Source of the DNA: Fidelibacterota bacterium
Lineage (GTDB): Bacteria > Pseudomonadota > Alphaproteobacteria > Rhodospirillales > Rhodospirillaceae
DNA length: 63,347 bases
Direction of reading: 5' to 3'
NCBI GenBank assembly: GCA_947475895.1
Contig: CANJMF010000018.1
Location: 1-63,347, forward strand
This document shows positions 25,585 to 51,228 of this stretch, in pieces; positions within the stretch are counted from its first letter, which is position 1; every line of letters starts with the position of its first letter. The notes beneath the pieces are model-generated. The model saw only the letters and a program-made list of their open reading frames with translations. It did not search any database and was not told where the DNA came from. A program made the position numbers and the translations under genes.

Positions 25585-26586
25585 ATGACCAAAGCTTCCA
25601 CCACTCTCCGGAAAGCCGCGCCCAAGGCTGCCAGCGCCGACGCCGACGTTGTCGCAGGACGTCAGGTTCTCGCGCATGCCAAAACCGGCCTCGAAGCGCT
25701 GTCGGAAAGCCTGGGAACCGCCTTTTCCGCCGCTGTCGAAATTTTTGCGCAGGCGTCCGGCCGTGTCGTCGTGTCGGGCATGGGCAAAAGCGGTCTCGTG
25801 GGTCACAAGATCGCGGCAACGCTCGCTTCGACCGGCACGCCAGCCTTCTTTGTTCATGCCGCCGAAGCCAGCCACGGCGACCTTGGCATGATTGCCTCGG
25901 GCGATGCGGTGCTTGCGATTTCCAATTCCGGCGAAACACCCGAGCTTTCCGATCTCGTTTCCTATACGCGCCGGTTCGCCATTCCCTTAGTGGCGATAAC
26001 GACGCGCCCCATATCCAGTTTGGCGCAAGCCGCCGACGTCGCGCTGCTATTGCCGGATGTGGGCGAGGCGTGTCCCCTCGGTCTTGCGCCGACCACGTCG
26101 ACGACGTTGACGATGGCGTTGGGCGATGCGATTGCCGTTGCCTTGCTGGAACGCCGCGGGTTCACCGCCGACGATTTCAAAACCTTCCATCCGGGCGGCA
26201 AGCTCGGACGTAAATTGTTTAAGGTCATCGACCTCATGCACACCGGCGACGAATTGCCGCTGGTGAAGCCGTCGATGCCGATGGCAGAAGTCGTTCCGTA
26301 TATGACCAGCAAGACTTTCGGCGTTGCGGGCGTTGTCGATGAAGCCGGCCGGTTGATCGGCGTCGTGACCGACGGCGATCTTCGTCGCCATATTTCCAAT
26401 TTGCTTTCGCTGACGGCAGCGGAAGTCATGACAAAAACACCTAAATCGCTAGGCCCCGCCATTCTCGCGGCCGAAGCCATGCGGCGCATGAACGAATGGA
26501 AAGTCACCAGCGTGTTCGTGGTCGATGATGCAAAGCCCGTCGGCGTCCTGCGTATGCACGATATCGTGCGGGCCGGCGCCGTATGA
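25585..26586 (+). CDS. kdsD: arabinose-5-phosphate isomerase (KpsF/GutQ family)
   Basis: 333 residues. It converts ribulose 5-phosphate to arabinose 5-phosphate, the first step to Kdo for LPS. The SIS domain covers about residues 40-180 (VVSGMGKSGLVGHKIAATLAS, then SNSGETPEL). Two CBS domains follow (about 205-330). Its place before lptC, lptA and lptB, with ATGA overlap to lptC, is the usual LPS-assembly context. Confidence 0.95.
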   Translation: MTKASTTLRKAAPKAASADADVVAGRQVLAHAKTGLEALSESLGTAFSAAVEIFAQASGRVVVSGMGKSGLVGHKIAATLASTGTPAFFVHAAEASHGDLGMIASGDAVLAISNSGETPELSDLVSYTRRFAIPLVAITTRPISSLAQAADVALLLPDVGEACPLGLAPTTSTTLTMALGDAIAVALLERRGFTADDFKTFHPGGKLGRKLFKVIDLMHTGDELPLVKPSMPMAEVVPYMTSKTFGVAGVVDEAGRLIGVVTDGDLRRHISNLLSLTAAEVMTKTPKSLGPAILAAEAMRRMNEWKVTSVFVVDDAKPVGVLRMHDIVRAGAV

Positions 26587-27269
26587 CCGCACCCAATCAG
26601 CCCAAAGACGATGTTCTGTGGCGGCCACGCGAGGCATCCGTCGCGCAGTCGGTGGCGCAATACAGTCGCTTTGTCGGCATCATGAAGCTGTCCTTGCCGA
26701 TTGCGGCCGGACTACTTCTTCTGTTGATCATCGTGTTGCCGCTTCTGCGCCGCGACGCCGATCGCTTTCAAGTAGGCACCGCGACCATCAACGCCAAGGA
26801 CGGCACGCTGAGCATGACTAACGCACGCTATTACGGGACTGACGATAAAGGTCAGCCGTACAACGTGACGGCGGCCGGCGTGCTGCAGAAATCAGCCGAC
26901 GATCGCGCCATCGATCTCAACGCGCCGAAAGCCGAAATCAATATGAACAACGGTACATGGATGTCAGCAACCGCGTCAGCCGGCACCTATAACCGCGAGA
27001 AGCAAGTGCTCGATCTGTCGGGCGATGTGTCGCTGTATCATTATACGGGCAACGACATTCACACCGACCAAGCGCAAGTTCGGTTGAAAGACGGGACCGT
27101 CACCGGCAACGGCGACGTTCACGGCAAAGGCCCCGTCGGCACCATCGACGCCAAGGGTTTCATCTATTCTAAAGAAGATAAAAAAATGCGCTTCACGGGT
27201 CCGGCACGGCTGACGTTCAGCCCCAAGAGCAAGACAGATGAAGCGGCTGCACCGGAGACGAAGAAATGA
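26583..27269 (+). CDS. lptC: LptC, LPS export periplasmic/inner-membrane protein
   Basis: 228 residues. A cytoplasmic N-terminus is followed by one transmembrane helix (LPIAAGLLLLLIIVLPLL, about 38-55) and an OstA-like beta-jellyroll periplasmic domain (ARYYGTDDKGQPYNVTAAG, then GDVSLYHYTGNDIHTDQAQVRL). LptC bridges the LptBFG ABC transporter to LptA. It overlaps kdsD and lptA by 4 bases on each side. Confidence 0.92.
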   Translation: MTAPNQPKDDVLWRPREASVAQSVAQYSRFVGIMKLSLPIAAGLLLLLIIVLPLLRRDADRFQVGTATINAKDGTLSMTNARYYGTDDKGQPYNVTAAGVLQKSADDRAIDLNAPKAEINMNNGTWMSATASAGTYNREKQVLDLSGDVSLYHYTGNDIHTDQAQVRLKDGTVTGNGDVHGKGPVGTIDAKGFIYSKEDKKMRFTGPARLTFSPKSKTDEAAAPETKK

Positions 27270-28165
27270 GGATACTGGTCTTGGCTGCGGTCTGCGCAGC
27301 GATGGTGTCGCCGGCGTATGCGCAGTCACTTAAGTTTCAGCCGAAGAACACCGCGCAGCCGATTGAGGTGAGCGCCGATAACGGCCTCGAACTGCAGCAG
27401 GAAGCCAAACGCGCTATTGCGCGCGGCAATGCGAAGCTGGTGCAGGGCGACGTCAGCGTTGTTGCCGACGAGCTCATTGCCGACTACCGCGACGACAACG
27501 ACATTTATCGTGTATTCGCAACCGGTCACGTCACAATGAAGTCGGCCACGGAAACGGCCACGGGCGAAGCCGCCGTCTATGACGTCGACAAAGCTGTGTT
27601 GGTGTTGACGGGCGACCCGGTGACATTGGTCAGCGCAGACGGAACGGTCACTGCTCACAAGACGCTGCAGTATTGGGCCAACGAACGCGTCGCCGTTGCG
27701 GAAGGCAATGCGTCCGCGGGCGATACGCAACAACGCCAGATCCAAGGCGACAAGCTCATCGCGTTTTTCCGCGAAGACGGAACGAGTCCGCAAAAAGGTA
27801 AAAAGTCCGCCTCGATAAACGAGCCGCGTAATCGCGGCGACATAAATTACGTTCAGGCGTTTGGAAACGTACGCATGAAAACGGCGACCGAAGATATTCA
27901 CAGTGACCGGGGCGCTTACAACATCGATACGAGTGTTGCGACTTTGGACGGCAACGTGCGGATTACGCGCGACAAGAATCAGCTGAACGGCGGTTTCGCC
28001 GTCGTGAACGTGAAGGGCGGAGTGAGCAAGCTCTTTGCGAGCGCCGCGCAGGCCGGACAACCAGGCATGAGAGACAGCACGCGCGTTAAGGCGTTGATTG
28101 CCCCCGATACGAAGCCCGGGGCCGCGCCGCCGGTAGATGCCAACACGACAAAGGCAAAACAATAA
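27266..28165 (+). CDS. lptA: LptA, periplasmic LPS bridge protein
   Basis: 299 residues, longer than E. coli LptA. Signal peptide: RILVLAAVCAAMVSPAYAQS. The OstA domain follows (LQQEAKRAIARGNAKLVQGDVSVVADELIADY, then ATGHVTMKSATETATGEAAVYD). The C-terminal third is low-complexity, rich in Ala, Pro and Thr. It forms the LPS-conducting bridge across the periplasm. ATGA overlap with lptC and a 1-base overlap with lptB indicate one transcript. Confidence 0.92.
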   Translation: MRILVLAAVCAAMVSPAYAQSLKFQPKNTAQPIEVSADNGLELQQEAKRAIARGNAKLVQGDVSVVADELIADYRDDNDIYRVFATGHVTMKSATETATGEAAVYDVDKAVLVLTGDPVTLVSADGTVTAHKTLQYWANERVAVAEGNASAGDTQQRQIQGDKLIAFFREDGTSPQKGKKSASINEPRNRGDINYVQAFGNVRMKTATEDIHSDRGAYNIDTSVATLDGNVRITRDKNQLNGGFAVVNVKGGVSKLFASAAQAGQPGMRDSTRVKALIAPDTKPGAAPPVDANTTKAKQ

Positions 28166-31273: not shown

Positions 31274-31900
31274 TTATCCTTCGTCTTCCCCAAAGGCTGC
31301 GCGTGCCTGAAAGACGCGCTGTGCAATCGTTACCGCGCAGGCGATCGTGAACAGCCAGCCGATCACGGGAAATGCGTTCGGCCAGATTAAGGCGATAAAA
31401 AAGAAGATCACGATTTCGCCGCGCTCAACCATAGCGCTGACGTAAAAGAAGGGTGCTCCGTCGATCTCGGGGCTGGGTATCTCGATGCCAACCCCATGAC
31501 GAGCCGCGAACATTTGCAGCGCCACAGCTGCAACGCCGATTCCTGCCAGCGTGATCATCAGCGCAATTCCTGCAAACCTATTGGCCGGGTCGGCTAAAGC
31601 GAAGCCCGCGGCGAGCGCGCTGAAGACAATCAAATCCAATACAATGTTCAAATACGACCCGAAGTCCGTTGCCTTGGACGCGCGCGCGACTGCGCCATCC
31701 AGGCCGGCGGCAAGGCGGCTCAGGGCCAATACGACAAAACCCAGGCTGGTCCAGCTAACGCCAATAAATACAGCGGCAATCAAGCCGGCCACAAATCCAG
31801 CCCACGTTAAAAGGTTGGCTTTGATATTGCGCTCCAATAACGCAGCGCCGGCGGCATCCAGGGGCGATCTCAGGGCTTTTGCGAAGAATGGATCGAGCAT
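31274..31900 (-). CDS. CDP-alcohol phosphatidyltransferase-family membrane protein, divergent active site
   Basis: 208 residues with several transmembrane helices. The family active site is DxxDGxxAR...GxxxDxxxD, which binds metal and the CDP-lipid. Here it reads AAGLDGAVAR and, further on, GSYLNIVLD. The first aspartate is Ala and the third is Asn; the second and fourth remain. Close family members I know of keep ADGLDG and GYLDIV. The fold is clear, but catalysis is doubtful. Its stop is adjacent to that of convergent ptsN. Confidence 0.8.
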   Translation of the reverse strand: MLDPFFAKALRSPLDAAGAALLERNIKANLLTWAGFVAGLIAAVFIGVSWTSLGFVVLALSRLAAGLDGAVARASKATDFGSYLNIVLDLIVFSALAAGFALADPANRFAGIALMITLAGIGVAAVALQMFAARHGVGIEIPSPEIDGAPFFYVSAMVERGEIVIFFFIALIWPNAFPVIGWLFTIACAVTIAQRVFQARAAFGEDEG

Positions 31901-34981: not shown

Positions 34982-35745
34982 GTCGCGCGGCGCATATCTC
35001 TGAACGTGCCTTTGACAAAGTGCTGCGCCAGCGCGTTTTGAAGATCGTGTGCAGCGTTGTACGTAAGCGCCGCTTCTGCCGCTTCGCCCAGCCTTTTTCC
35101 CGCGTAGACCGCTTCGACGAAGACCGCGTCCGCCGATGTGATTAAGCGCGTGATCACATGGTCCCGTGGCCGCGACACAAGAACATCTTCGCCAACTTTC
35201 ATGTCAACGCGTGGAATGTCGATGATGTCGGGCTGATTGACTTCCCAAATGCGATAAATGGGAAATTGCGATCGTATCAGGCGCACAGCAGGATGCGGAT
35301 CCAAGCGAAGTGTTTCTATGTCATCCGACGCCGCAACGAGAAACGCCGCGTCAAACGGCGGCGCATCGGCGGCGAAGTAAGCTTCTCCGCGGACCCATTC
35401 GAGCCGCGCGACATCCGCGAGATAAGGCAATTGCTGGTGGACGTCGGATATCGCAATGAAGGCCGGAAAATCGCTACCGTACGTGGACAGCTGAGGCCGG
35501 CGCGGAGGGGCATTTGCAATAAAACGGCGCGCAAGGCTCGCGAAGAAAGCATCACCAACGATCCGCTGTGTTGCCGGAAAAGCGGCGGCGAGCGCTTCTA
35601 CCAAGCTGCCCTGAACCGTGTTGCGATAAACCGCGATGCGGTCGGCGATGGACCCGGATGAGCGTACATGCGCGCGCAAGGAGCCGTCTCCGGGGCCGAG
35701 GACAGCGTTGCGAAACAGCAGTTGTAGATCGCGTAAGGGTATCAT
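34978..35745 (-). CDS. bufC: BufC/HvfC-type partner protein (DUF2063)
   Basis: 255 residues. The N-terminal DUF2063 domain (RDLQLLFRNAVLGPG...IAVYRNTVQGSLVEALAAAFPATQRIVGDAFF) and a C-terminal domain match the partner protein that works with the MNIO enzyme BufB on bufferin precursors, probably by presenting the peptide. It overlaps bufB by 4 bases (ATGA) and is third in bufA-bufB-bufC. Confidence 0.88.
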   Translation of the reverse strand: MIPLRDLQLLFRNAVLGPGDGSLRAHVRSSGSIADRIAVYRNTVQGSLVEALAAAFPATQRIVGDAFFASLARRFIANAPPRRPQLSTYGSDFPAFIAISDVHQQLPYLADVARLEWVRGEAYFAADAPPFDAAFLVAASDDIETLRLDPHPAVRLIRSQFPIYRIWEVNQPDIIDIPRVDMKVGEDVLVSRPRDHVITRLITSADAVFVEAVYAGKRLGEAAEAALTYNAAHDLQNALAQHFVKGTFRDMRRAT

Positions 35746-36578
35746 GGGTTCAGGTCCAACAGGTTTTGCGCCTTAGCCGCTTCACCTAGAAGGATGTGCA
35801 ACTCGGGGATTTCCAAATCCCATTCGATCAACGTCGGACGCGGGCCGATCCGGGCGATGGTTTGTGCGTAGAGTCCCCAGACGTCGTCACAGACTTTGGC
35901 GCTATGGGTGTCGATCAAAAAGGGATCGTTGCCGTGCGCAGCGACGCTGTGTCCGGCAAGATGGATTTCGCCCACCGCGTCGCCTGGAATTGTATTCAAA
36001 TAATCCTGCGCGTCGATGCCGTTGTTATGTGCGCTAACGTAGACATTGTTCACATCGAGCAACAGGCCGCAGCCCGTACGCGCGACAAGGTGCGCCAGGA
36101 ATTCCGGCTCGCTCATGGTTGAAGCGGGGAATGAGATGTAAGCCGACGGATTTTCGATCAGAATTTTCTGCCCGAAGGTGCTTTGCGCGGTTTCAACATT
36201 GCGCGCCACCGTGTTCAACGTCTCGTCGTTATAGGGCAGCGGCAGAAGATCATTGAGATAGGTTCCATCCGTCACGCTCCACGCCAGGTGTTCGGAAATC
36301 AGCTTGGGCTGCGTGCGATCGAAAAGGGTTTTCAAGCGCCTGAGGTGTTCAGGGTCCAAACCCTCTGCCGAACCGAGCGAGAGTCCTACGCCGTGACAAC
36401 TGATGAGATAACGCGCCGCGATGGCGTCGAGCATCGCAAGGCGCGGGCCGCCATCACAGAGAAAATTCTCGCTATGGATTTCCAGCCACGGCGCGCGCAA
36501 CGGCGCGTCCGAGGCTTCGGCGGCGAAAAGCGCGAGGTGAGGATGGCGCAGGCCGATACCTGCCGCCGGGCGAATCAT
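35742..36578 (-). CDS. bufB: MNIO-family peptide-modifying oxidase (DUF692)
   Basis: 278 residues from ATG 36578, a start that overlaps the bufA stop by one base (TGATG). GIGLRHPHLALF, WLEIHSENFL, ISCHGVGLSLG, SEHLAWS, ENPSAYI and LLDVNNVYVSAHN hold the His/Glu/Asp ligands of the multinuclear iron site of the TIM-barrel DUF692 family (as in MbnB). In bufferin clusters it converts precursor cysteines to thiooxazole heterocycles. The ligand set appears complete. Confidence 0.92.
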   Translation of the reverse strand: MIRPAAGIGLRHPHLALFAAEASDAPLRAPWLEIHSENFLCDGGPRLAMLDAIAARYLISCHGVGLSLGSAEGLDPEHLRRLKTLFDRTQPKLISEHLAWSVTDGTYLNDLLPLPYNDETLNTVARNVETAQSTFGQKILIENPSAYISFPASTMSEPEFLAHLVARTGCGLLLDVNNVYVSAHNNGIDAQDYLNTIPGDAVGEIHLAGHSVAAHGNDPFLIDTHSAKVCDDVWGLYAQTIARIGPRPTLIEWDLEIPELHILLGEAAKAQNLLDLNP

Positions 36579-36916
36579 CAGCTGTGCGAGGCGTCTTTTT
36601 GGACGGGCGGCTGGCTCACGCCGTCGAAGGGCTGAAGCTTGCCGCCCATTTGCAGGCAGGTGCCTGCGGCCACCAATGTCCACTCCTGACCGCTATAGTC
36701 GAGCGTCGCGAGGCCGCCACAAGTATGGTCCGCTCCTTGCGAGGCACAGGCGTTTTCGCCTGCCGTCACAACGCCGAAGCATTTTTCCTTACCTGATTCC
36801 ACGCGATCCATACCGCCAGGAGAAGCTGTCTCTTTCTCAACTATGGCGAGTGCGCCGGCGACTACGGCAGCCCCGACAACAGCCCCTGCAAGCATGCGAA
36901 TTTTCAATTTATCCAT
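36578..36916 (-). CDS. bufA: bufferin precursor (DUF2282)
   Basis: 112 residues. A hydrophobic signal segment ([20 protein letters not shown]) is followed by four conserved cysteines: EKCFGVV, NACASQG, HTCGG and GTCLQM. This is the DUF2282 BufA pattern: exported, cysteine-containing peptides that bind copper after modification by BufB. Unusually, a short linker of about 20 residues and a Ser/Pro-rich tail ([10 protein letters not shown]) flank the core. The operon order bufA-bufB-bufC on the minus strand suggests metal-stress induction, but no operator is recognisable in 36917-37083. Confidence 0.88.
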
Positions 36917-37083
36917 TGCGACGTCCCTCGGCGATCAGGCCCGAAGAGTGAAGTATACGCATCATAGAACCAAAATCCTTAACACCGAGAATCACACCTT
37001 TGCGAGGGACTATAGGTTCGTTTGCAATACTTGTAACATACCGTGAATTGACGGCTACGACTCGCGTGTAGAAAACGCATCCC

Positions 37084-38853
37084 ATGCAACAGAGTGTGGC
37101 CGCCTCAGTCGTTCCACCGTCGCTGGTCCCAACCCCGACGGATACGCCGAATTTTACGAAGCGGCTTGCCAATTTCGATACGTTGCCCGCCGCGTTAGAT
37201 TATGCGGCCAAAAGCGAAACGGGATTCACGTTCTATTCCGGTCGCGGTGTGATCGAGGCCGTGCTGCCCTTCCGCGATTTGCGGGATCGTGCGGTCGATG
37301 CCGCGCTGCGGCTGGCAGGGGCTGGTCTCAAGCCGGGAGACCGCGTCGCTTTGTTGGCAGCGACCACACCGGAATTTCTCGTGCTCTTCTTCGCTTGCCA
37401 ATATGTCGGCGTGATTCCCGTGCCGATGCCGCTGCCGACAGCTTTCGGACGGCGCGAGGCTTACATCGAGCAAATCAAAGGCCAGATGGTGTCGTCGGGC
37501 GCACGCATGGTGTTCGGCCCAGCAGAGTTTCTGCCGCTCGTCCGCGAAGCCGCGGCGGCGACAACGTTGCAGTTCATTGGCGCCTTGGACGACGTGGCAG
37601 CCTGGACGCAAAGCGGCGCGGACTTGCATGCCGCAGGAACAAACGATTTATCCTATATCCAATACAGCTCCGGCTCGACGCGCTTTCCCACCGGCGTGAT
37701 GGTGACGCATGCGGCCCTCATGGCGAACAGCCATGCCATGAATCGATACGGCGTAAGCAATGGCCCGGGCCAACGTGCGACCTCGTGGCTGCCGTTCTTT
37801 CACGACATGGGCCTGGTTGGCTTCATGTTGGGCGCCCTGACGAGTCAGACCTCGGTCGATTATTTGGCGACGGAAGATTTCGCGCGCCGTCCGCTGACGT
37901 GGCTGAAGATTGTCAGCGACAATGGCAGCACCGTCTCCTACGCGCCGTCTTTCGGTTATGAATTGTGCGCCCGCCGTGTCGCGACGATGAGCGAGGGTTC
38001 GCTGGGTCTCGACCTTTCGAAATGGCGCATCGCCGGCATCGGCGGCGAAATGATCAAGCCCAATGTGATGCAGGCCTTTGCGGCCGCCTTCAAGCCTTAT
38101 GGGTTTTCGGAAAAAGCGTTCTGCGCAAGTTACGGCCTGGCGGAATGTGTGCTGGCGGTCAGCTTCGCGGGGACAAATAAAGGAATGGTGCTCGACCATG
38201 TTGATAAAGCGGGCCTTGAAGATCATCGCGCCGTCGCCGTGAGTGAGGCCGCGCCTGATGCGCGCACTTTCGTTTCCTGCGGTAAAATCATTCCGGGCCA
38301 CCGCGTCGAAATTCGCGGCGAGGGTGGCGAGATCCTCGGCGAACGCCAAGTGGGCCGCGTGTTTGTTGATGGCCCAAGCGTCATGAGCGGCTATTTCAAC
38401 GATGCTGCCGCCACGGAAGGCGCCTTAAAGGATGGTTGGCTTGATACGGGTGATCTTGGGTATTGGATTGGCGACGAGCTCGTGATCGTCGGGCGTGCCA
38501 AAGACATGATGATCGTCAACGGCCGCAATGTATGGCCGCAAGACATCGAATGGACCGTGGAACATATCGACGGGTTGCGGTCGGGCGATAGCGCGGCCAT
38601 CGTTCTTGTTGGCAACGACGGCGCCGAAAAACCGACGGTCCTTGTTCAGTGCCGTCTGTCGGATGTGTCCGAACGCAATAAACTGGCAGCCGAAGTGCGC
38701 ACAAAGATTCAAGAAGCCTCCGGAATTCAATGCGACATCATCTTGGTGCCGGCGCGTAGCTTGCCAAAGACGACCTCGGGAAAACTTGCACGCGGTCGCG
38801 CCAAAACCATGTTCATGGCCGGCGAAATTCCGCGGCTCGATATAGCCTCCTAG
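37084..38853 (+). CDS. aasR: fatty acyl-AMP ligase / acyl-ACP synthetase for ceramide synthesis
   Basis: 589 residues of the fatty acyl-AMP ligase type. YSSGSTRFPTGVMVTHAAL is the phosphate-binding loop, with Thr where acyl-CoA ligases have Lys, as in FAALs. FHDMGLVGFMLG, GYFNDAAATEG and DTGDLGYWIGDELVIVGRAKDMMIVNGRN are also family motifs. It would load a fatty acid onto the ACP at 39909-40178 for serine palmitoyltransferase. It is followed by cerR after 3 bases and heads the ceramide cluster. The symbol follows the Caulobacter naming. Confidence 0.85.
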   Translation: MQQSVAASVVPPSLVPTPTDTPNFTKRLANFDTLPAALDYAAKSETGFTFYSGRGVIEAVLPFRDLRDRAVDAALRLAGAGLKPGDRVALLAATTPEFLVLFFACQYVGVIPVPMPLPTAFGRREAYIEQIKGQMVSSGARMVFGPAEFLPLVREAAAATTLQFIGALDDVAAWTQSGADLHAAGTNDLSYIQYSSGSTRFPTGVMVTHAALMANSHAMNRYGVSNGPGQRATSWLPFFHDMGLVGFMLGALTSQTSVDYLATEDFARRPLTWLKIVSDNGSTVSYAPSFGYELCARRVATMSEGSLGLDLSKWRIAGIGGEMIKPNVMQAFAAAFKPYGFSEKAFCASYGLAECVLAVSFAGTNKGMVLDHVDKAGLEDHRAVAVSEAAPDARTFVSCGKIIPGHRVEIRGEGGEILGERQVGRVFVDGPSVMSGYFNDAAATEGALKDGWLDTGDLGYWIGDELVIVGRAKDMMIVNGRNVWPQDIEWTVEHIDGLRSGDSAAIVLVGNDGAEKPTVLVQCRLSDVSERNKLAAEVRTKIQEASGIQCDIILVPARSLPKTTSGKLARGRAKTMFMAGEIPRLDIAS

Positions 38854-38856
38854 AAA

Positions 38857-39801
38857 ATGAACCGCCCACTGATCGCCATCACCGGCGCGACAGGTTTCAT
38901 CGGTGGGCGATTGGCGCGCGCACTCGTCGACGCAGGTTACGATGTGCGGGCGTTGACGCGCCGTGCGCCGTCGCGGGACGTGCCGTCGGAAGTGGCGTGG
39001 GTTCAAGGCACGCTTAACAATGACGAAGCGCTCAACGCGCTCGTTAAAGACGCGGCGTTTGTCGTGCATTGCGCGGGCGCCATCAAAGCCCGCAACCGCG
39101 ATGAATTTCTCGAAGTGAATGCCGGAGGTACGCGCCGCCTTGCGGCGGTGGCCGCCGCGCAATCCAAACCGCCGCGCTTTATTCATCTGTCGTCGATTGC
39201 CGCACGTGCGCCAACGCTTTCCAGTTATGCCGCGAGCAAACGCGCGAGCGAGCAGGCGTTGCGGGGGTTCGATATTTTGCGTCCGGTGATTTTGCGCCCG
39301 CCCGCCGTCTACGGCCCGGGCGATATGGAAACCCTGCGGATTTTTCAAATGGCCGTGAAGGGGTTCGTGGTGGCGCCCGCTCAGCGCACCGCTCGCCTGT
39401 CGCTGGTGCATGTGGAAGACGTGACACGCGCCGTCCTGGCGGCCCTGAAACTGGCCGAACCTCCCGCCCGTCCCGTTGAGTTCGATGACGGGCGCATCGG
39501 GGGCTATACCTGGCCAGAAATTGTAACAGCCGCCGGGGAAGCTCTGCGGACGACCCCGCGGTTAATCCGGCTTCCTGCCCCCCTGGTTTACGGGGTCGGG
39601 CTGGCCGGGTCGGTCCACGCGGCCATGACTGGGCGGCCAAATGTGCTGTGCTGGGACAAAGTTGCTGAACTGCTTTTTCCGGACTGGGTGGCGGCCGGCG
39701 AGCCCCTTTTTGGATATAACCCCTTGTGGAATATAGAAAAAGGCTTCAAAGATACGGTGACTTGGTACGCCTCACGGGGTCTGTTGAAAAGTAACGGGTA
39801 A
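38857..39801 (+). CDS. cerR: ceramide reductase-type NAD-dependent epimerase/dehydratase
   Basis: 314 residues, extended SDR. ITGATGFIGGRLARAL is the NAD(P)-binding loop and YAASKRASEQAL the Tyr-xxx-Lys. In bacterial sphingolipid pathways this member reduces the 3-keto group of oxidised ceramide. The assignment rests on its place between the acyl-ACP synthetase and the ACP/Spt genes. Sequence alone would say only NAD-dependent epimerase family. Confidence 0.82.
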   Translation: MNRPLIAITGATGFIGGRLARALVDAGYDVRALTRRAPSRDVPSEVAWVQGTLNNDEALNALVKDAAFVVHCAGAIKARNRDEFLEVNAGGTRRLAAVAAAQSKPPRFIHLSSIAARAPTLSSYAASKRASEQALRGFDILRPVILRPPAVYGPGDMETLRIFQMAVKGFVVAPAQRTARLSLVHVEDVTRAVLAALKLAEPPARPVEFDDGRIGGYTWPEIVTAAGEALRTTPRLIRLPAPLVYGVGLAGSVHAAMTGRPNVLCWDKVAELLFPDWVAAGEPLFGYNPLWNIEKGFKDTVTWYASRGLLKSNG

Positions 39802-39908
39802 GTTGATTTGGTATTTTCCTTAGATTCCCGCACTCTAACACTTAGCACCTGCAGCAAAATCCGACCGATCAGCGGAGCCGCGGGTGCACGAGGAATGGTT
39901 TTCGCGGC

Positions 39909-40178
39909 ATGACGACGATAGGCACTGAACCCTCGGCACAGACCGTGGCGGCCTTGGTCGAAATCCTCGGACCGTTCAACAAGACAGGCGCTGAGCTAAA
40001 ACCAGGAACGCGGTTCACAGAGGATTTGAACTTTGATTCACTGGTTGTGATGGAGTTCGTTGCCGTTGTTGAAGACACGTTCGATATCTCCGTGCCTCTC
40101 AACATTCTGCCGGATGTGGCAACGATAAGGGACTTGGCGGCGGCGGTAGATGAAATCGTCGCGGAATCAAAGTCCTGA
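39909..40178 (+). CDS. acpR: acyl carrier protein of ceramide pathway
   Basis: 89 residues. The phosphopantetheine serine is in DLNFDSLVVMEFV near residue 45; helix II is acidic (EDTFDISVP). It is longer and less acidic than housekeeping AcpP. It would carry the acyl chain for serine palmitoyltransferase, as in Caulobacter AcpR. A gap of 107 bases separates it from cerR, so a second promoter is possible. Confidence 0.88.
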   Translation: MTTIGTEPSAQTVAALVEILGPFNKTGAELKPGTRFTEDLNFDSLVVMEFVAVVEDTFDISVPLNILPDVATIRDLAAAVDEIVAESKS

Positions 40179-40217
40179 GGGCTCCCGCTCAACGGGAACG
40201 TAAACGTGGGGATTTAA

Positions 40218-41450
40218 ATGGCTGAGTTGTTAGATCGTTTTGCGCCGCTGATGGGTCAGCGCGATGCATTGTTCGGCGACGGCGGTGCCAACCCCTTCCA
40301 AGTGAAAATGGACCAGGTTCTGTCGCAGACCGAAGCGATGATCGGCAATCGCCGCACAATCCTCGTCGGAACCAACAATTATCTCGGACTGACTTTCGCG
40401 CCCGAAGCGCTGCAAGCCGCGCACGACGCGCTCGATGCCTGCGGTACCGGCACAACCGGCAGCCGCGTTGCCAACGGCACTTATAGCGGCCACGCCGATC
40501 TCGAAAAGACGCTCGCGACATTTTTCGGCAAAGAACACGCGATGGTGTTCTCCACGGGCTTCCTCGCGAACCTCGGCATTCTGTCGACGCTGATGGGTCC
40601 GGAAGATTTCATTTTGATGGACGCCGATTGCCACGCGTCGATCTATGACGGCGTGCGCGGTTCGTCCGCGCAGATCATTCGTTTCAAGCACAACGATGCG
40701 GCCGATCTCGATAAGCGTTTGGCGCGTCTTGCCGACAAGCCGGGCAACAAGCTGATTGTCATTGAAGGCATTTATTCAATGCTCGGCGACAAAGCGCAGC
40801 TGGCGGATATCGTCGCGGTGAAAAAGAAACACGCGAACACCTATCTGTTGTCCGACGAAGCACACTCGCTCGGCGTTCTCGGCCGCTACGGTCGTGGTCT
40901 GCCGGAAGAAGTGGGCTGCGAAGACGATGTCGATTTCATCGTCGGCACGTTTTCGAAATCGGTCGGCACGGTCGGCGGCTTCTGCGTCTCGAACCATCCG
41001 CAATTCGATACCTTGCGCCTCGTATGCCGCGCGTATGTGTTCACCGCGTCTCTGCCGCCTTCGGTGGTAGCGTCCGCGATTGCAAACCTGAAAGCGGTTC
41101 AAAAAGGTGGCGCGCTGCGCGCACGTTTGATGCGCAACGCGAAACATCTGCACACGGGGTTGAGCGCGCTCGGCTTGAAGATCGCCAGCGATGTCAGCCC
41201 GGTTGTGGCTGTTGTGGCGCCCGACGTGCAAACCGCCGTTACCTTCTGGCGCGGGCTCATCGAAGCGGGCGTGTATGTGAACCTGGCGCTGCCGCCGGCA
41301 ACGCCGTTTGGTTACTCATTGCTGCGCGCAAGCTTGTGCGCGGCGCATACGGAAGAGCAGCTCGAGGAAGTGATCGCGATTTTCGCGAAAGTCGCGTCCG
41401 ACATCGGCCTCATTACACCCGCGAAGACGAAACGTACCGCCGTCGGTTAA
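40218..41450 (+). CDS. spt: serine palmitoyltransferase (alpha-oxoamine synthase)
   Basis: 410 residues, PLP enzyme of the AONS family. It condenses L-serine with an acyl thioester to 3-ketosphinganine, the committed sphingolipid step. GTNNYLGLTF, FSTGFLANLG, LSDEAHSLGVLGRYGRG and the PLP-lysine region GTFSKSVGTVGGFC are present. KBL, BioF and HemA share the fold, but the neighbouring ACP, reductase and GNAT genes single out Spt. It is preceded by GGGGATTTAAATG, a moderate ribosome site. Confidence 0.92.
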   Translation: MAELLDRFAPLMGQRDALFGDGGANPFQVKMDQVLSQTEAMIGNRRTILVGTNNYLGLTFAPEALQAAHDALDACGTGTTGSRVANGTYSGHADLEKTLATFFGKEHAMVFSTGFLANLGILSTLMGPEDFILMDADCHASIYDGVRGSSAQIIRFKHNDAADLDKRLARLADKPGNKLIVIEGIYSMLGDKAQLADIVAVKKKHANTYLLSDEAHSLGVLGRYGRGLPEEVGCEDDVDFIVGTFSKSVGTVGGFCVSNHPQFDTLRLVCRAYVFTASLPPSVVASAIANLKAVQKGGALRARLMRNAKHLHTGLSALGLKIASDVSPVVAVVAPDVQTAVTFWRGLIEAGVYVNLALPPATPFGYSLLRASLCAAHTEEQLEEVIAIFAKVASDIGLITPAKTKRTAVG

Positions 41451-41628
41451 CGGTCGTTACAACGATAGGTAATGACGCGCCACGCTCTGATCGCGTGATA
41501 GCCGTCGAAATCGGGGATTTCCCTTGGAAATCCAAACCTAGCCCTCGCATTAGCGTTCGCTTAAAATGCGGGCCGTTGGGCATGGCGCGCCCTGTTACAT
41601 CCAACCGAACTCGGCAAAGGCGCGGAAT

Positions 41629-42885
41629 ATGAAGGCCCTTGATCGTTACGTTCTCGGCCTAATTCTGCCGACCTTGGCCGTCACCCTTTTCATTGCGGCG
41701 ATCGTGCTCGCCATGGATCGGCTGATGCGCCTCCTGGATATCGCCGTGGGCAACGGTGTTTCAACACTGGTCGTGTTCCAGATGGTGTTCAACCTGCTGC
41801 CGCATTACATCAGCCTCGCATTGCCGGTGGGATTGTTTCTCGGGGTGCTCCTGGCGTTTCGGCGCATGTCCATGCAGTCCGAGCTCGATGCCATTCATTC
41901 GTGCGGCATTGGCATCGGTCGGCTTATTCGCCCCGCCCTGGCGCTCGCCGCGATTTGCATGGCGCTGAATTTTATTCTCTCCGGTTATGTGCAGCCGTAC
42001 ACGCGCTACATCTACAACCGTATTTATTTCAACATCACGTCGGGACTGATCGAGCAGGGCATTGGCGAGGGCGTTTTCAGAACGCTTCCCAACGGCTACA
42101 CGCTGCGCGTCGAAGAGTCCCGCAACGGCGGCCGCGAGCTGTCGGGCGTATTCGCCCACAAACAAGAAGAAAACGGGCACATCACCACGCTGACCGCCAA
42201 ACAAGGCGAGTTGATGACGCGCGGATTAAACGGTTCCATTGCGTTGCGCCTCTTCGACGGCAATTGGTCGCAGTGGGATCCTTCAACCAAGGCGACATCC
42301 ACGGTTCATTTCGATCAAAACATATGGGCGCTTAATCTCGACGAACTGCTGCGTTTTCGCGGACGCGGCGGTGATTCCCGCGAATTGACGACCTTCGAGC
42401 TGCTGCGAGGTTATTTCGACAACGTGGCCGCCGGTCGTAAGGGGCTAAAGGTCGACGAGACCGCGCCTGAAGATCCGCCGGAGCGCAGTGTCGCGCCCGC
42501 ATCTTTGTCGTCTGAGCTGCATGGGCGTTTGGTGTTCTCCCTTTCCATGTTCCTTCTGCCGTTGATGGCGGCGCCCTTCGGCATCATGACGCATCGCTCA
42601 AGCAAGTCCTTTGGCATGGTGGCAGGGCTTTCGCTGCTCGTCAGTTATCATAAGGTTCTCGAATTCAGCGGCGCTTATAGCAGTCACACCGGTGCGCCGG
42701 CTGGCGTCATGCTGTGGACGATTTTTGTCCTCTTTGCCATTGCGGTGACCTGGCTCTTCACGCGCACGCAAATGCAGGCCGGCGCGCCGCCAATTCAGCG
42801 TTTCGAGGCCCATTGGGTTGCGTTCTGGTCGGCGGTATCCGCGATCTTTCGCCCGAAGCGGGTCGTTACACCGGCGCGGGCATAG
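41629..42885 (+). CDS. LptF-like permease in ceramide cluster
   Basis: 418 residues from ATG 41629 (MKALDRYVLG). It has the LptF/LptG plan (YjgP/YjgQ): three N-terminal transmembrane helices, a periplasmic beta-jellyroll domain (about 130-290), and three C-terminal helices. LPHYISLALPVGLFLGVLLAFRRMSMQSELDAIHSCGIG is the coupling-helix region that contacts the LptB ATPase. Either these are the cell's LPS permeases placed here, or a dedicated pair for sphingolipid export. The cluster position makes the second an attractive inference. The next gene is the matching LptG-like one. Confidence 0.85.
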   Translation: MKALDRYVLGLILPTLAVTLFIAAIVLAMDRLMRLLDIAVGNGVSTLVVFQMVFNLLPHYISLALPVGLFLGVLLAFRRMSMQSELDAIHSCGIGIGRLIRPALALAAICMALNFILSGYVQPYTRYIYNRIYFNITSGLIEQGIGEGVFRTLPNGYTLRVEESRNGGRELSGVFAHKQEENGHITTLTAKQGELMTRGLNGSIALRLFDGNWSQWDPSTKATSTVHFDQNIWALNLDELLRFRGRGGDSRELTTFELLRGYFDNVAAGRKGLKVDETAPEDPPERSVAPASLSSELHGRLVFSLSMFLLPLMAAPFGIMTHRSSKSFGMVAGLSLLVSYHKVLEFSGAYSSHTGAPAGVMLWTIFVLFAIAVTWLFTRTQMQAGAPPIQRFEAHWVAFWSAVSAIFRPKRVVTPARA

Positions 42886-42894
42886 GCCAAAGAA

Positions 42895-43965
42895 ATGATT
42901 CTCACGCGCTATGTGATGCGTTCTTACCTCACGCGGTTCGCAGCATTGCTGCTGGGATTGGTCGTGTTCCTGCAAACGCTTGATCTGCTCGCCGAGGCCA
43001 ACACGGTGCTGGCGGGCGGTGGACCGCCGGTGCTCACGCTGCTGCGCTATGTGGCGCTGCGCTCGCCGTCTCTTGCGCAAACCATCGCGCCGTTGGCCGG
43101 CTTGCTCGCAGCACTTATGGCGCTGGTTGTGATGGCGCGTAACAGTGAAATTCTTGCGATGCGTGCGGCCGGGCGTTCGGTCTTCAGCCTTGTCAGCGGT
43201 TTGGTCGCATGCGGCTTTGGTCTTTCGTTGGCGCTGTTTGTGTTTACCGAATACGTGGAAGTGCCGGCCAACTCAGCGCTGCAGGATTGGAAAGACTCCG
43301 GTTACAAAACCGAAGGCCGCGTCGATAACGGCGAAAGCAGTTGGTTGGTGGAAGGCGATACCTACATTCGTGTGGCACAGGTCATGCGCGAAGGCACCGT
43401 GCTCAACGACGTCCGGGTCTTTAAGCAGGGCACCGACGCCAGCATTACCGACATCATCGCGGTACGTTTAGCCATTTGGGAAGACGATCATTGGACGACG
43501 TTCGACGTGCGCCGTCTCGGTGCGGTGAACGCGGATGCCACGCCGGCGGTTTGGGAAACAAAGCTTAAGCCCGATCAGTTCTTGCGCTTTGCCAACCATC
43601 CCGACGAATTGTCGATGAATGCGCTGAAGGAATACGTCGGCACCGTCGCGGTGGGTTCGCGTCCGCCGTATTTCTACGACACATGGTTGCAACAGAAAAT
43701 TGCCGGACCGATGGTTCTCGCCCTCATGCCGCTGTTGGCGGCACTGGCCGCGTTCGCCCACCACCGCCAAGGCACGCCCGTCATGACGATTGTGTGGGGG
43801 GTCACGTTTGGTTTCATGTTTGTCGTAATCGATAACATTTTGCTCGCCATGGGCCAGTTCGGCTCGCTGCCGCCGCTTCTAGCGGCGTGGCTACCACTCG
43901 CACTTTTCACGACCGCGGGCTTATGGGTTCTGTTTACATTCGAGCACACTGGCGCGCGTACGTAA
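42895..43965 (+). CDS. LptG-like permease in ceramide cluster
   Basis: 356 residues, same six-helix plus periplasmic jellyroll plan as its neighbour 9 bases upstream. ILTRYVMRSYLTRFAALLLGLVVFLQTLDLL begins the first helix. MALVVMARNSEILAMRAAGRSV is the LptB-contact region. The pair would form the heterodimer that, with an LptB ATPase, extracts a lipid from the inner membrane. The partner ATPase could be the LptB at 28165-28956, as none is encoded in this cluster. Confidence 0.87.
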   Translation: MILTRYVMRSYLTRFAALLLGLVVFLQTLDLLAEANTVLAGGGPPVLTLLRYVALRSPSLAQTIAPLAGLLAALMALVVMARNSEILAMRAAGRSVFSLVSGLVACGFGLSLALFVFTEYVEVPANSALQDWKDSGYKTEGRVDNGESSWLVEGDTYIRVAQVMREGTVLNDVRVFKQGTDASITDIIAVRLAIWEDDHWTTFDVRRLGAVNADATPAVWETKLKPDQFLRFANHPDELSMNALKEYVGTVAVGSRPPYFYDTWLQQKIAGPMVLALMPLLAALAAFAHHRQGTPVMTIVWGVTFGFMFVVIDNILLAMGQFGSLPPLLAAWLPLALFTTAGLWVLFTFEHTGART

Positions 43966-44005
43966 GCGGGTTTATAAAACGCCGCAGATTGCAGCCATTT
44001 ATGGA

Positions 44006-44809
44006 ATGAATGTGAAGCTCAAGCTCGGCTTCTGGAGCGATAAGGAATACCACCTGGACCGCATGGATTTGCGAGCCCTGACGGCGGCCTATTTGCAGTA
44101 CTACGCGATCGCTGCATATTTCGTTGTGGCGTTGGTCGCCGGTGGCAGCGTGATCGCATCACTCATCACTGATCCATCTTTGTTGTTGCCGGTGTTGGTC
44201 GCGTGCTTGTTGGCCTTCTTCATCTACCCGGTTGTTTGGTACGTGCTGCATCGCTTCATTTTGCACAGCCGCTGGATGTGGAAATCGCCGCTCACCGCGA
44301 GCACATGGAAGCGCATTCACTACGATCACCATAGCGACCCTAATAATTTGAAAGTGCTGTTCGGCGCGCTCTACACCACGCTGCCCACGGTTGCCATTGC
44401 GACAATGCCGGTGGGCTACGCGCTCGGTGGTTGGACGGGCGCCCTTGCCGCTTTGACGACGGGCGTAATTCAAACATGTGTCTATGAATACTTTCATTGC
44501 ATTCAACACTTGGGCTATGTGCCTAAGTGGGCGTGGGTGCGCGAGATGAAGCGCTTTCATATGGCGCACCATTTCCATAACGAGACGGGCAACTTCGGCA
44601 TCACGAATTTGTGGTGGGATAAGGTCGTGGGCACGTTCTACGACGGTCTGAAAGAACGTCCGCGCTCGGCGACGGTGTTCAATCTCGGTTACGACGAAGA
44701 GGTCGCCAAGACCTACCCTTACGTGGCGCGCCTGACGCCCACGTGGCCTTACAATACCAACCCGATGCAGCGTAAGCGCGCCGCCGCCAATCAGGCGAGC
44801 ACGACCTAA
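44006..44809 (+). CDS. fatty acid hydroxylase / sterol desaturase superfamily membrane protein
   Basis: 267 residues. It has several transmembrane helices and the di-iron histidine motifs HRFILH, HYDHH, EYFHCIQH and HMAHHFHNETGNFG. Enzymes of this superfamily hydroxylate or desaturate lipid chains in the membrane. Between LptG-like and ceramide synthase genes, the likely substrate is the long-chain base or the N-acyl chain of ceramide, which is inference. It is 5 bases before cerS, so the two are co-translated or nearly so. Confidence 0.83.
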   Translation: MNVKLKLGFWSDKEYHLDRMDLRALTAAYLQYYAIAAYFVVALVAGGSVIASLITDPSLLLPVLVACLLAFFIYPVVWYVLHRFILHSRWMWKSPLTASTWKRIHYDHHSDPNNLKVLFGALYTTLPTVAIATMPVGYALGGWTGALAALTTGVIQTCVYEYFHCIQHLGYVPKWAWVREMKRFHMAHHFHNETGNFGITNLWWDKVVGTFYDGLKERPRSATVFNLGYDEEVAKTYPYVARLTPTWPYNTNPMQRKRAAANQASTT

Positions 44810-44814
44810 GTCCC

Positions 44815-45978
44815 ATGCACCAGACGCTCGCGTCCGCGATCACGATCAAACGCGTCGGCGCGGGGGCGACGCGCTCCGACTTCATTCAGGTTTCGCACGC
44901 CACGCAAGGACACGATCCTTATTGGGTGGCGCCGATTGCCTTGGTTGAGGGGCCGCGCCTCAATCCGAAAAGCAATCCCTGGTTCCAGCACGGCGAAGCG
45001 GCACTGTTCATTGCCGAGCGCGACGGAAAGCCCGTGGGCCGCATTTCGGCGCAGGTCGATCAGGCGCATTTGAAAATTCACAAGGACGCCACGGGATTTT
45101 TCGGCTTCTTTGAATCCGTCGATGACCAGGCCGTCGCCGACGCGTTGTTCAAAACCGCGTGCGATTGGCTGCGTGAAAAAGGAATGAAGCGTTGCGTTGG
45201 GCCGTTCAGCTTTAACATCAACGATGAATCGGGCTTGTTGATCGACGGCTTCAATTGCCCGCCGCGCATGGCGATGGGACATACGCAGCCTTACTATCAA
45301 ACTTTGGTAGAAGCGGCGGGCTTTACTAAAGTTGTCGATATGCGCGCCTACCTCACGCCCATGGACACGGGCTTGCCGTTCAAACAACTCAAGTGGTTGA
45401 AGCGTGCGCTGGACCGCAACCCGAGTCTCGCCGTGCGCGCGATTGATATGTCGCGTTACGACGAAGAGTTCGCGGCGATGATGGAGATCATTCGCGTGGC
45501 GTGGGTCGACAACTGGGGTTCCATTCCGCCGAGCGAAGCGGAGGCCAAACATTTGGCCGCCGAACTGAAGCTCATCTTGTTGCCGGAACTGGTGTCCATC
45601 GCCACCATCGACGGCCGGCCGGTTGCGTTTTGCCTGGCGCTGCCCGACTTCAATGAAATGATCCGCGACCTGAAGGGAAAGCTGTTTCCCTTCGGTTGGG
45701 CGAAGCTGGTGTGGCGTTTGCTGACGCGCCGCACATTCGTTTCCGGAACGCGCGTGATCTTCATGGGCGTGATGCCGGAGTTCAAAAACAAACCCATGGG
45801 TTCGGTGTTGGCGCTGCTGACGGTTGGCGCGGTGCGCGAGGCATCGCTCAAACTGCGGATGCCGGTGTGCGAGATGAGCTGGGTTTTGGAAACCAATACC
45901 CAGACGTGCCATTCGATCGAGGACATTGGCGGGCGCGTCTATAAGACCTACCGCATGTACGAGCGCGCGCTTATATAA
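44815..45978 (+). CDS. cerS: bacterial ceramide synthase, GNAT-type N-acyltransferase
   Basis: 387 residues. The N-terminal half (FIQVSHATQGHDPYWVAPI, then NPWFQHGEAALFIAERDGKPVGRISAQ) and C-terminal GNAT-like half match the Caulobacter ceramide synthase family, which acylates the long-chain amine and is unrelated to eukaryotic ceramide synthases. By itself the sequence would be called GNAT-like; the surrounding spt, acpR and cerR genes give the function. It is followed after 17 bases by a small membrane gene with a good ribosome site. Confidence 0.85.
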   Translation: MHQTLASAITIKRVGAGATRSDFIQVSHATQGHDPYWVAPIALVEGPRLNPKSNPWFQHGEAALFIAERDGKPVGRISAQVDQAHLKIHKDATGFFGFFESVDDQAVADALFKTACDWLREKGMKRCVGPFSFNINDESGLLIDGFNCPPRMAMGHTQPYYQTLVEAAGFTKVVDMRAYLTPMDTGLPFKQLKWLKRALDRNPSLAVRAIDMSRYDEEFAAMMEIIRVAWVDNWGSIPPSEAEAKHLAAELKLILLPELVSIATIDGRPVAFCLALPDFNEMIRDLKGKLFPFGWAKLVWRLLTRRTFVSGTRVIFMGVMPEFKNKPMGSVLALLTVGAVREASLKLRMPVCEMSWVLETNTQTCHSIEDIGGRVYKTYRMYERALI

Positions 45979-45995
45979 GCCGAGGAGGCGATCGG

Positions 45996-46244
45996 GTGCT
46001 CGGCTTCATTTTCCGTCTTTTCTTTACGCTTTTGGCCATCGCGGTGCTGGGACTGCTGTTTGTCTATGCGCTGGTCGCCGCCGCGATCATCACGCCGTTT
46101 TTGGCGATCTTTCTTTATTTCCTGAACCGGAAGGCCAAGGCACGCTGGCAGGAGCTGCAGCGTGAGCAGGCGCGTTACCGCAGTCCCGACGGACAGCCGG
46201 GGCCCGTGATCGATCACGATCCCAACGATCTGCCGCGCACGTGA
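45996..46244 (+). CDS. small membrane protein, last gene of ceramide operon
   Basis: 82 residues from GTG 45996, with CGAGGAGG about 8 bases upstream. One long hydrophobic stretch (about 3-45, possibly two helices) is followed by a basic cytoplasmic-type segment NRKAKARWQELQREQ and an acidic tail. No family recognised. Its position suggests a link with the sphingolipid genes, but this is unproven. A 90-bp repeat begins immediately after its stop. Confidence 0.65.
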   Translation: MLGFIFRLFFTLLAIAVLGLLFVYALVAAAIITPFLAIFLYFLNRKAKARWQELQREQARYRSPDGQPGPVIDHDPNDLPRT

Positions 46245-46334
46245 AAACGAGCCCATGAACTTATGGGCGCCGACCCCTTAGGGCGCTGATTCTAGTCGGA
46301 AATTCGCGCTGGCAAACGAGCCCATGAACTTATG
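46245..46334 (-). repeat. 90-bp structured intergenic repeat, copy 2
   Basis: This is the reverse complement of copy 1 (7498-7587), the same length, with terminal 21-base words at 46245-46265 and 46314-46334. The first 30 bases of the two copies are identical. Internal bases differ, but a hairpin is kept (GCGCC/GGCGC here, GCGCAC/GTGCGC in copy 1). It starts one base after the upstream stop codon. It also contains the stop codon of the convergent dmeF-type gene at 46330-46332. Confidence 0.85.
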
Positions 46335-47328
46335 CGGCGTGGGGCTTGTCGCCGCAGCACACTTCCACTTCAACGGTGACGTGGCTCAAGCTCGGAATTT
46401 TCGTGAGAAGGGCTTTGTAATACGCCGGCGGGCGCGGGGTATGGGTCACCACGGTTAAGACCGCTGCCAAATGGCCTGGCCCGACGCGCCAGACGTGAAG
46501 ATCGGCGAGGCGGTTGTCGGCATCCGCTTCAATCGCCGTGCGCACCGCGCGCGTCGTTTTAGCGGAGGGATCGGCATCCAACAAAATGCGCCCCGTCGTT
46601 CCCAGAAGGCTCCAGGCCCAACGCGCGATAATGACAGAGCCCAGCACGCCGATAGCGGGGTCGAGCCAATTCAGCCCCCAGAAACGCCCAGCGAGCAAAG
46701 CACCGATGGCCAACACCGACGTCAATGCGTCGGCGAGAACGTGCACGTAGGCAGCCCGTAAATTGTGATCTTGATGGTGATGCTCATGACTGTGTTCATG
46801 AGCGTGGTCATGGTGGTCCTCATGAGCGTGATGGTCATGCTTCGCCTCGGGTTCGTCGTGGCCGTGCTGATGATCGTCCTTCAGCATCCAGGCCGTAACC
46901 AGATTGACGACGAGACCCAGCACAGCGACTGCGATAGCATCATCGAAGGCGATGGGTACGGGCGTCAGCAGGCGCACGGTCGACTCGTAAGCCATCATCA
47001 CGGCGATGACGCCCAAGACGAGCGCGCTGGCAAATCCACCGAGGTCGCCGACTTTACCGGTGCCGAAGGTGTAGGTGGTGTTCGCCGCATGGCGATGTGC
47101 GTACTGATAGGCGAACGCGGCAATGCCCAATGCGGCGGCGTGGCTGCCCATGTGCCAACCGTCGGCCAGCAGCGCCATGGAGCCGAAGACCGTACCGGCG
47201 ATAATTTCGGCGACCATCATCGCGATTGTGAGGCCCAGCGCCCACTGCGTGCGCTTCGCGTTCGTCGCGTGGCCTTGGGCCAAGAAGAAATGATTGCGCT
47301 GCCAGGGTTCTAAGGAGTGCTCGGTCAT
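46330..47328 (-). CDS. dmeF: DmeF-type Co/Ni cation diffusion facilitator
   Basis: 332 residues. Six transmembrane helices and a C-terminal cytoplasmic domain give the CDF plan; it exports divalent metals by proton antiport. MALLADGWHMGSHAAALGIAAFAY and YTFGTGKVGDLGGFASA are typical of the DmeF subgroup (Co2+/Ni2+). A loop at residues about 153-188 has 17 histidines, a metal-sensing or buffering segment. No DmeR repressor is next to it. Its stop codon lies inside the 90-bp repeat. Confidence 0.87.
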   Translation of the reverse strand: MTEHSLEPWQRNHFFLAQGHATNAKRTQWALGLTIAMMVAEIIAGTVFGSMALLADGWHMGSHAAALGIAAFAYQYAHRHAANTTYTFGTGKVGDLGGFASALVLGVIAVMMAYESTVRLLTPVPIAFDDAIAVAVLGLVVNLVTAWMLKDDHQHGHDEPEAKHDHHAHEDHHDHAHEHSHEHHHQDHNLRAAYVHVLADALTSVLAIGALLAGRFWGLNWLDPAIGVLGSVIIARWAWSLLGTTGRILLDADPSAKTTRAVRTAIEADADNRLADLHVWRVGPGHLAAVLTVVTHTPRPPAYYKALLTKIPSLSHVTVEVEVCCGDKPHAA

Positions 47329-49105: not shown

Positions 49106-49287
49106 GTCATCTTACCAATGGACGGGGTAACTCTGTTGGTGCGGCCGATCTGATCGCGGTGACGCGTGCTTCAAAAACCGCGATGGGTTGGGCCGGGCAA
49201 TTTTTCCGCACGTCCTTTCTCCGTCTTTAATTTAACCGGCGCCGCTCCGATGGTTTTGGGGCGTGCGCCTTTACGGGGGTATTGGAC

Positions 49288-51222: not shown

Positions 51223-51228
51223 AAGCAC

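Follow-up and report, generated by a model that had tools for sequence, protein, structure and literature searches.

Positions 37084-46244 of contig CANJMF010000018.1 (assembly GCA_947475895.1, a genome of the Rhodospirillaceae deposited as Fidelibacterota bacterium) hold a single plus-strand gene run, aasR-cerR-acpR-spt-lptF-lptG-hydroxylase-cerS, identified by profile searches of the open reading frames (ORFs) in the window, which here means the whole stretch of 63,347 nucleotides that was analysed. All five genes of the bacterial ceramide pathway (AasR, CerR, AcpR, Spt and CerS) are present, and among them lie two permease genes of the LptF/LptG type, called lptF2 and lptG2 here, and a gene for a membrane hydroxylase. 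An earlier note, made from the sequence alone, had described this combination, and the searches confirm it. The locus is a genuine ceramide operon that includes an LptFG pair of the ceramide type, and comparison with related sequences makes it quite probable that the role of the pair is the export of sphingolipid over an Lpt bridge shared with lipopolysaccharide (LPS). In the proposed pathway AasR and AcpR would charge the acyl chain, Spt and CerS would build the ceramide and CerR would reduce it, and the run would thus make (dihydro)ceramide and then export it. According to the available text of PMC11087976, Spt and CerS are cytoplasmic and CerR is periplasmic.

The run is compact (Table 1). 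Its intergenic gaps measure 3-175 nt, the longest preceding lptF when the start at 41626 is preferred over the listed 41566, and no gene intervenes between spt and lptF. Among the loci profiled for gene order, many of which end at contig or fetch borders, the window alone has the eight core genes complete and in a single order, every gap being 300 nt or less; the nearest layouts are a seven-gene run without the hydroxylase (L108) and a similar one with a single 0.7-kb gap (L119). The two permeases score 240 and 201 bits against PF03739 (cut-off 27.9) and pass the curated cut-offs of their families, lptF2 with 231.2 bits against 230 for TIGR04407 and lptG2 with 250.1 against 240 for TIGR04408. 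CerR, AcpR and CerS are identified by general domains and position, with no dedicated profile. The small membrane protein that the earlier note included is a doubtful member and the weakest part of the run: its 82-codon ORF has one hydrophobic helix and a codon-position guanine-cytosine (GC) profile resembling that of its neighbours, and no second copy was found among the scanned loci (phmmer, E 1e-5). Scans of 36900-46500 found no enrichment of promoter-like (2, against a shuffle mean of 3.6) or terminator-like sequences (16, against 13.5 in shuffles) and are uninformative on operon borders.

Table 1. Genes of the ceramide run and of the lptC-lptA-lptB block in the window
Feature	Position	Strand	Basis
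lptC, sole PF06835 match in the genome, probably shared	26583..27269	+	TIGR04409 62.7 bits
lptA-like	27266..28165	+	TIGR03002 61.9 bits, below cut-off 71.7; PF03968 above cut-off
lptB, ATPase, the only one above the family cut-off in the genome	28165..28956	+	TIGR04406 364 bits
aasR, fatty acyl-AMP/ACP ligase	37084..38853	+	NF006624 765 bits (cut-off 600); PF00501
cerR, SDR/epimerase-fold ceramide reductase	38857..39801	+	PF01370 99.5 bits; place in the aasR-cerR-acpR-spt order common to other loci
acpR, acyl carrier protein	39909..40178	+	PF00550 37.7 bits
spt, serine palmitoyltransferase	40218..41450	+	NF047599 605.8 bits (cut-off 500)
lptF2, ceramide-linked LptF-like permease	41626..42885	+	PF03739 239.6 bits; TIGR04407 231.2 bits; trees; residue columns
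lptG2, ceramide-linked LptG-like permease	42895..43965	+	TIGR04408 250.1 bits; trees; residue columns
Scs7-like membrane hydroxylase, directly upstream of cerS	44006..44809	+	PF04116 70.8 bits; Scs7 match; AlphaFold/Foldseek
cerS, GNAT-like bacterial ceramide synthase	44815..45978	+	PF00583 23.1 bits; alignment with 25 relatives, 29-45% identity
Small one-helix membrane ORF, doubtful member	45996..46244	+	Single hydrophobic peak; coding-like GC by codon position

The genome (3.3 Mb, 100% complete) encodes four PF03739 proteins, the window pair and two elsewhere, which answers the earlier note's question about ordinary LptF and LptG outside the window; the possibility that the pair are the only such genes of the genome is rejected. 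An ordinary lptF adjoins lptD on contig C12 (TIGR04407, 243 bits against a cut-off of 230), with a SurA-like ORF, recognized by eye, downstream of lptD. An lptG lies on contig C8 (TIGR04408, 235 bits, just below the cut-off of 240), next to a PAP2-like ORF, also recognized by eye, which is followed by a type III polyketide synthase-like protein and a weak isoprenylcysteine methyltransferase-like protein. Ordinary lptF and lptG are likewise non-adjacent in G035 (L065 and L066; L005 and L006 in the present genome).

There is no ATPase gene within the ceramide run, and the earlier note had reasoned that the pair would need the LptB encoded at 28165-28956 or one from elsewhere; this is the sole LptB-type ATPase above cut-off in the genome, and it probably powers the two LptFG pairs alike. 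A second LptC or LptA was considered and rejected, both being single copies in the lptC-lptA-lptB block (26583-28956). LptD_N has two matches in the genome (LptA and LptD), LptD has one, and LpxC and LpxB are both present. Duplication in this genome is limited to the permease pair, with LptB, LptC, LptA and LptD single, and the genome combines the tested lipid A genes with one bridge and two permease pairs. Since only LptF and LptG are duplicated, either the rest of the bridge would be shared or another route would be used. The dedicated sphingolipid route envisaged in the earlier note stands in part, in that comparison among genomes supports a pair serving sphingolipids; the word "dedicated" goes too far for a machine in which only LptF and LptG are duplicated.

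To place the pair in a wider context, CerS, LptF/G, LpxC and LptD were each searched for in one set of 190 genomes of the class. CerS was matched in 26 genomes, one match being a 140-residue fragment (G184) that was left out of the CerS counts. Four or more LptF/G genes are present in 9 of the 11 genomes with CerS and LpxC, compared with 1 of 164 without CerS (Fisher p 1.6e-12, uncorrected for kinship), and the second pair lies within ~14 kb of the ceramide genes in all nine, a clustering that the earlier note had proposed to look for. Some copy numbers require comment: the five LptF/G matches of G027 include three from one broken-up ordinary pair, and three LptF/G genes occur in four genomes lacking CerS (G025, G064, G087, G182). 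Within families f36 and f52 the number of LptF/G copies rises from two to four with CerS, and no such rise is seen in f37 (G035). In family f30, G028 (LpxC but no CerS) has an ordinary LptF, judged from one of its two copies, and G159 (CerS but no LpxC) has the ceramide type only. These distributions support the view that the extra pair tracks CerS, and not the LPS genes, across the 190 genomes; the outcome that the earlier note had named as refuting its reading, a sole LptF/G pair co-varying with LPS genes instead of spt, was not obtained. In G159 a further CerS gene, next to an spt, lies on a contig other than that of its main ceramide cluster (L062, G159:C6:3001-21000), with no LptF/G in the stretch fetched.

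Fourteen genomes from ten families, each at least 99% complete, have CerS but no LpxC match; LpxB is also missing in 13 of them, with a weak match in the other (G058). Thirteen of the fourteen have exactly two PF03739 genes, situated within ~5 kb of CerS, and the pairs of these thirteen all group with the ceramide-linked proteins in the LptG tree described below. The same thirteen retain LptD and LptB. LptC was matched in 11 of the 14 and, among the thirteen keeping the pair, was not found in G058 and G131. Where LpxC and LpxB are both missing, 12 of 13 genomes with CerS keep an LptF/G pair, compared with 1 of 10 genomes without CerS (Fisher p 1.1e-4, again uncorrected for kinship). Six genomes with LptF/G but neither LpxC nor CerS (G019, G059, G062, G087, G134, G151) were considered as counter-examples and set aside, as all six carry LpxB, which is also found in G023, in G127 and in G074, a genome with a single LptF/G gene; the LpxC misses in LpxB-bearing genomes may reflect incomplete assemblies or a divergent LpxC. 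LptF/G in the absence of LpxC, LpxB and CerS is found only in G166, which is 80% complete.

These genomes bear on how much of the bridge is used. An LptB-driven pair might extract or flip sphingolipid at the inner membrane, after which a different route, such as an AsmA-like or Mla-type bridge, would take over in place of LptC-LptA-LptD. The limitation of the duplication to LptF and LptG and the two LPS-less pair keepers in which LptC was not found would fit such an arrangement, but LptD is kept in all thirteen pair keepers with CerS and no LpxC, where LPS should not need it, and the hand-over is considered unlikely.

Linkage was also sampled from contigs, using the best 80 named CerS loci. 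LptF and LptG are both present in 47 of these, and in 36 of the 43 whose flanks extend for 9 kb or more in each direction; the distance from pair to CerS has a median of 1.1 kb and a maximum of 8.3 kb. The usual neighbours of the ceramide-linked pair are the five ceramide genes, an association that argues against a somewhat different cargo, namely another lipid of the same organisms such as a glycosylated, hydroxylated or phosphorylated derivative instead of plain ceramide. That alternative, which is mostly a question of head group and is given a slightly smaller chance than the hand-over to another bridge, draws on a Glycos_transf_2 (family 2 glycosyltransferase) gene ~11 kb downstream, a CDP-alcohol phosphotransferase match upstream (23.0 bits against a cut-off of 22) and the phosphoglycerate ceramides that Caulobacter makes, according to the available text of PMC11324152. 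The two genes, at 56971-57954 and 31274-31900 respectively, are possible head-group enzymes.

Phylogenetic trees, in which proteins were assigned to groups by gene location and not by sequence, separate the ceramide-linked permeases from their ordinary counterparts. A single branch divides 68 ceramide-linked from 41 ordinary alphaproteobacterial proteins in the LptF tree, and 71 from 38 in the LptG tree, each with a Shimodaira-Hasegawa-like approximate likelihood ratio test (SH-aLRT) support of 99. The earlier note had proposed such a tree, and the window pair falls on the ceramide side (SH-aLRT 99-100), apart from the ordinary pairs, LptD-linked ones included. In a tree of joined LptF and LptG sequences (70 chosen rows, with E. 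coli added), 32 ceramide-linked pairs, including that of the window, form one side of a branch with support 100, and 12 other ceramide-linked pairs group with E. coli at 100. The pairs on the E. coli side come from Pseudomonas, Halieaceae, Desulfobulbaceae, Geothrix, Acidocella, Nitrospirillum and gammaproteobacteria; the loci of this second lineage are L076, L078, L080, L084, L105, L111, L112, L122, L125, L129, L137, L140, L141 and L145. With one ordinary gammaproteobacterial pair included and quick trees without bootstrap, this topology suggests that ceramide-linked LptFG arose by at least two recruitments. The Pseudomonas asuensis pair belongs to the second lineage, which argues against a Caulobacter-like donor of its transport genes.

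Residues that contact LPS also differ between the two classes. In the LPS-bound sfLptB2FG structure, as given in the available text of PMC6744409, LptG K40 and LptF K317 bind the 4′-phosphate, and LptG K41, among others, contacts the inner core; E. coli carries the same residues, and its numbering is used for the alignment columns. At LptG column 40 a basic residue occurs in 36 of 38 ordinary alphaproteobacterial proteins, compared with 1 of 57 in the main ceramide clade (a set that includes one duplicate, L056 being identical to L073, the G123 record) and 2 of 14 in the second clade. For column 41 the corresponding counts are 38 of 38, 10 of 57 and 1 of 14, and LptG2 of the window has N and T at the two columns. 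The mean net charge of LptG stretch 30-45 is +0.7 in ordinary proteins and about -2 in ceramide-linked ones. Among the LPS-contact columns only LptG 40/41 discriminate cleanly: the LptG K34 column mostly holds an acidic residue in either class; LptG K62, R133 and R136 and LptF R263 and K317 are variable or non-basic in ordinary alphaproteobacterial proteins as well; a basic residue at the LptF K322 column is seen in 24 of 41 ordinary proteins and is rare in the ceramide-linked class; and most proteins of either class retain LptF R33. This signature counts once per lineage, and not as 57 independent events. The glutamates LptF E84 and LptG E88, the coupling-helix residues that face LptB in E. 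coli, are kept in 109 of 109 and 102 of 109 ordinary and ceramide-linked proteins, respectively, and the window proteins have E at both. The pattern can be read as that of a pair which would still couple to LptB but would no longer hold LPS by its second phosphate and its core.

It could be argued that the pair is a redundant LPS exporter that sits by chance in a ceramide run, given that both proteins score above the LPS-export equivalog cut-offs, LptF2 barely so. The separate subfamily recovered in three trees, the retention of the pair in genomes from which LpxC and LpxB are gone, and the loss of the basic LPS-contact pair all speak against this, and the idea was rejected on those grounds as highly improbable.

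Several observations weigh against sphingolipid export over the shared bridge. G066 (100% complete, one contig) carries CerS with aasR-cerR-acpR-spt (L041, G066:C1:1497001-1517000) and gave no LptF/G, LptD, LptC, LpxC or LpxB match and no LptB above cut-off, which implies that a CerS genome can do without the machine; its family mate G186 retains a ceramide-type pair. G035 and G079 have CerS and LpxC with two LptF/G genes and no second pair, G022 has four LptF/G copies and no CerS, and 7 of the 43 well-flanked loci among the best 80 have no full pair (L068, L069, L082, L101, L123, L143, L144). The genome counts are not independent, and nine of the ten genomes without LpxC, LpxB and CerS that entered the LPS-less comparison measure 0.6-1.7 Mb, so that this group consists mostly of small genomes. 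LptG2 E88 is replaced by alanine in all seven aligned Caulobacteraceae (L110, L120, L126, L135, L138, L142, L146), the sole exceptions at this column, while LptF2 of that family retains the coupling glutamate. Finally, no LptC2 was found in the window genome with PF06835, a profile that may miss one, unlike the situation in Caulobacter.

A movement of phosphosphingolipids by such proteins has been proposed before. In the available text of PMC11324152 (2024), CC_1168, CC_1156 and CC_1155 of Caulobacter crescentus are named LptC2, LptF2 and LptG2 and put forward as candidates for this role. The parts available of PMC11087976 state that no sphingolipid flippase or transporter had been identified as of 2024, and those of both papers describe the transit of bacterial sphingolipids to the outer membrane as unknown in that year. 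The Caulobacter pair likewise stands beside cerS and belongs to the same main tree clade, with named Caulobacteraceae loci serving as proxies. The window differs in its contiguous run, the hydroxylase next to cerS, the lack of an LptC2 detectable with PF06835 and the retained LptG coupling glutamate. When 195 ORFs of at least 90 residues from six Caulobacteraceae loci (the spt-lptF gap and 3.5 kb past cerS) were compared with the window, to which the search was confined within this genome, three matches were obtained, none near the run. With ordinary LptB2FG (E. coli and relatives; PDB 6mhu and others) the window pair shares the fold family, the pair arrangement and the coupling glutamates, and it differs in lacking the LptG 40/41 basic pair, in linkage to ceramide genes instead of lptD and in its separate branch. 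Export of sphingolipid by LptF2/LptG2 is therefore an idea already known, and the window locus is a new, compact member without a PF06835-detectable LptC2. What is added here is the comparison of LPS-less genomes, the signature at LptG 40/41 and the second lineage, for which no counterpart was found in the literature searched, a body that excluded subscription papers and most preprints.

Taken more broadly, the Lpt bridge could be a carrier of lipids in general, and not an LPS machine, with LptF/LptG determining which cargo is moved. On this model the pair would have been exchanged independently at least twice, each time mostly with loss of the LptG basic clamp, to give a sphingolipid exporter; in LPS-bearing genomes such as the present one a single LptB-C-A-D bridge would serve both cargos, and in sphingolipid bacteria without LPS it would carry sphingolipid alone. 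The case for and against this wider model seems about evenly balanced. If the pair is the cargo-specific part, one transenvelope machine would serve two lipid classes, and LPS-less bacteria would become clean systems for its study. Cargo choice could be approached directly through the LptG 40/41 signature, and the kind of LptFG pair that a genome encodes could serve to predict its surface lipid as LPS, sphingolipid or both.

The hydroxylase directly upstream of cerS resembles Scs7 (PDB 4zr1), the yeast ceramide very-long-chain fatty acid hydroxylase, in fold, PF04116 domain and histidine clusters. Against PDB sequences the match has an E-value of 5.4e-11 at 24-25% identity, with the histidines conserved, and an AlphaFold model (mean predicted local distance difference test score 91.8) finds Scs7 as its best Foldseek hit (E 1.6e-5, TM-score 0.52-0.56) and as the only PDB fold match with E below 0.001. 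As Scs7 is the only related fold found in the PDB, the match cannot set the site of hydroxylation; the enzyme probably 2-hydroxylates the ceramide N-acyl chain. PF04116-type proteins with profile scores above 290 occur in 44 of 107 CerS loci, three of the 44 being one G027 gene held three times, and in 25 of the best 80 named loci. By the ORF ends used, which overrun in some of the other loci, the hydroxylase is on the same strand and at most 300 bp upstream of cerS in 27 of the 44. Three of 47 matches in CerS loci, scoring below 165 bits (L053, L102, L137), were left out; those of L102 and L137 have 20-23% identity to the window enzyme. A hydroxylase beside cerS was not seen in the Caulobacteraceae loci profiled. 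The available text of PMC11324152, citing another paper, proposes hydroxylation of the amide-linked acyl chain, the role suggested for the window enzyme, for Caulobacter CC_0202, a DesA-family desaturase/hydroxylase encoded outside the cluster, whereas the window enzyme belongs to PF04116 and adjoins cerS. We infer that the same reaction may be carried out through a different enzyme.

Two further gene groups flank the run. Directly upstream, on the minus strand at 34978-36916, genes for a DUF2063 protein and an MbnB/TglH/ChrH-type enzyme (PF05114) and a short Cys-containing ORF form a set that looks like a modified-peptide cluster of the bufferin-like kind. Downstream, a TonB-dependent receptor, a periplasmic binding protein and a FecCD permease at 49282-53108 make up an iron- or cobalamin-type uptake cluster.

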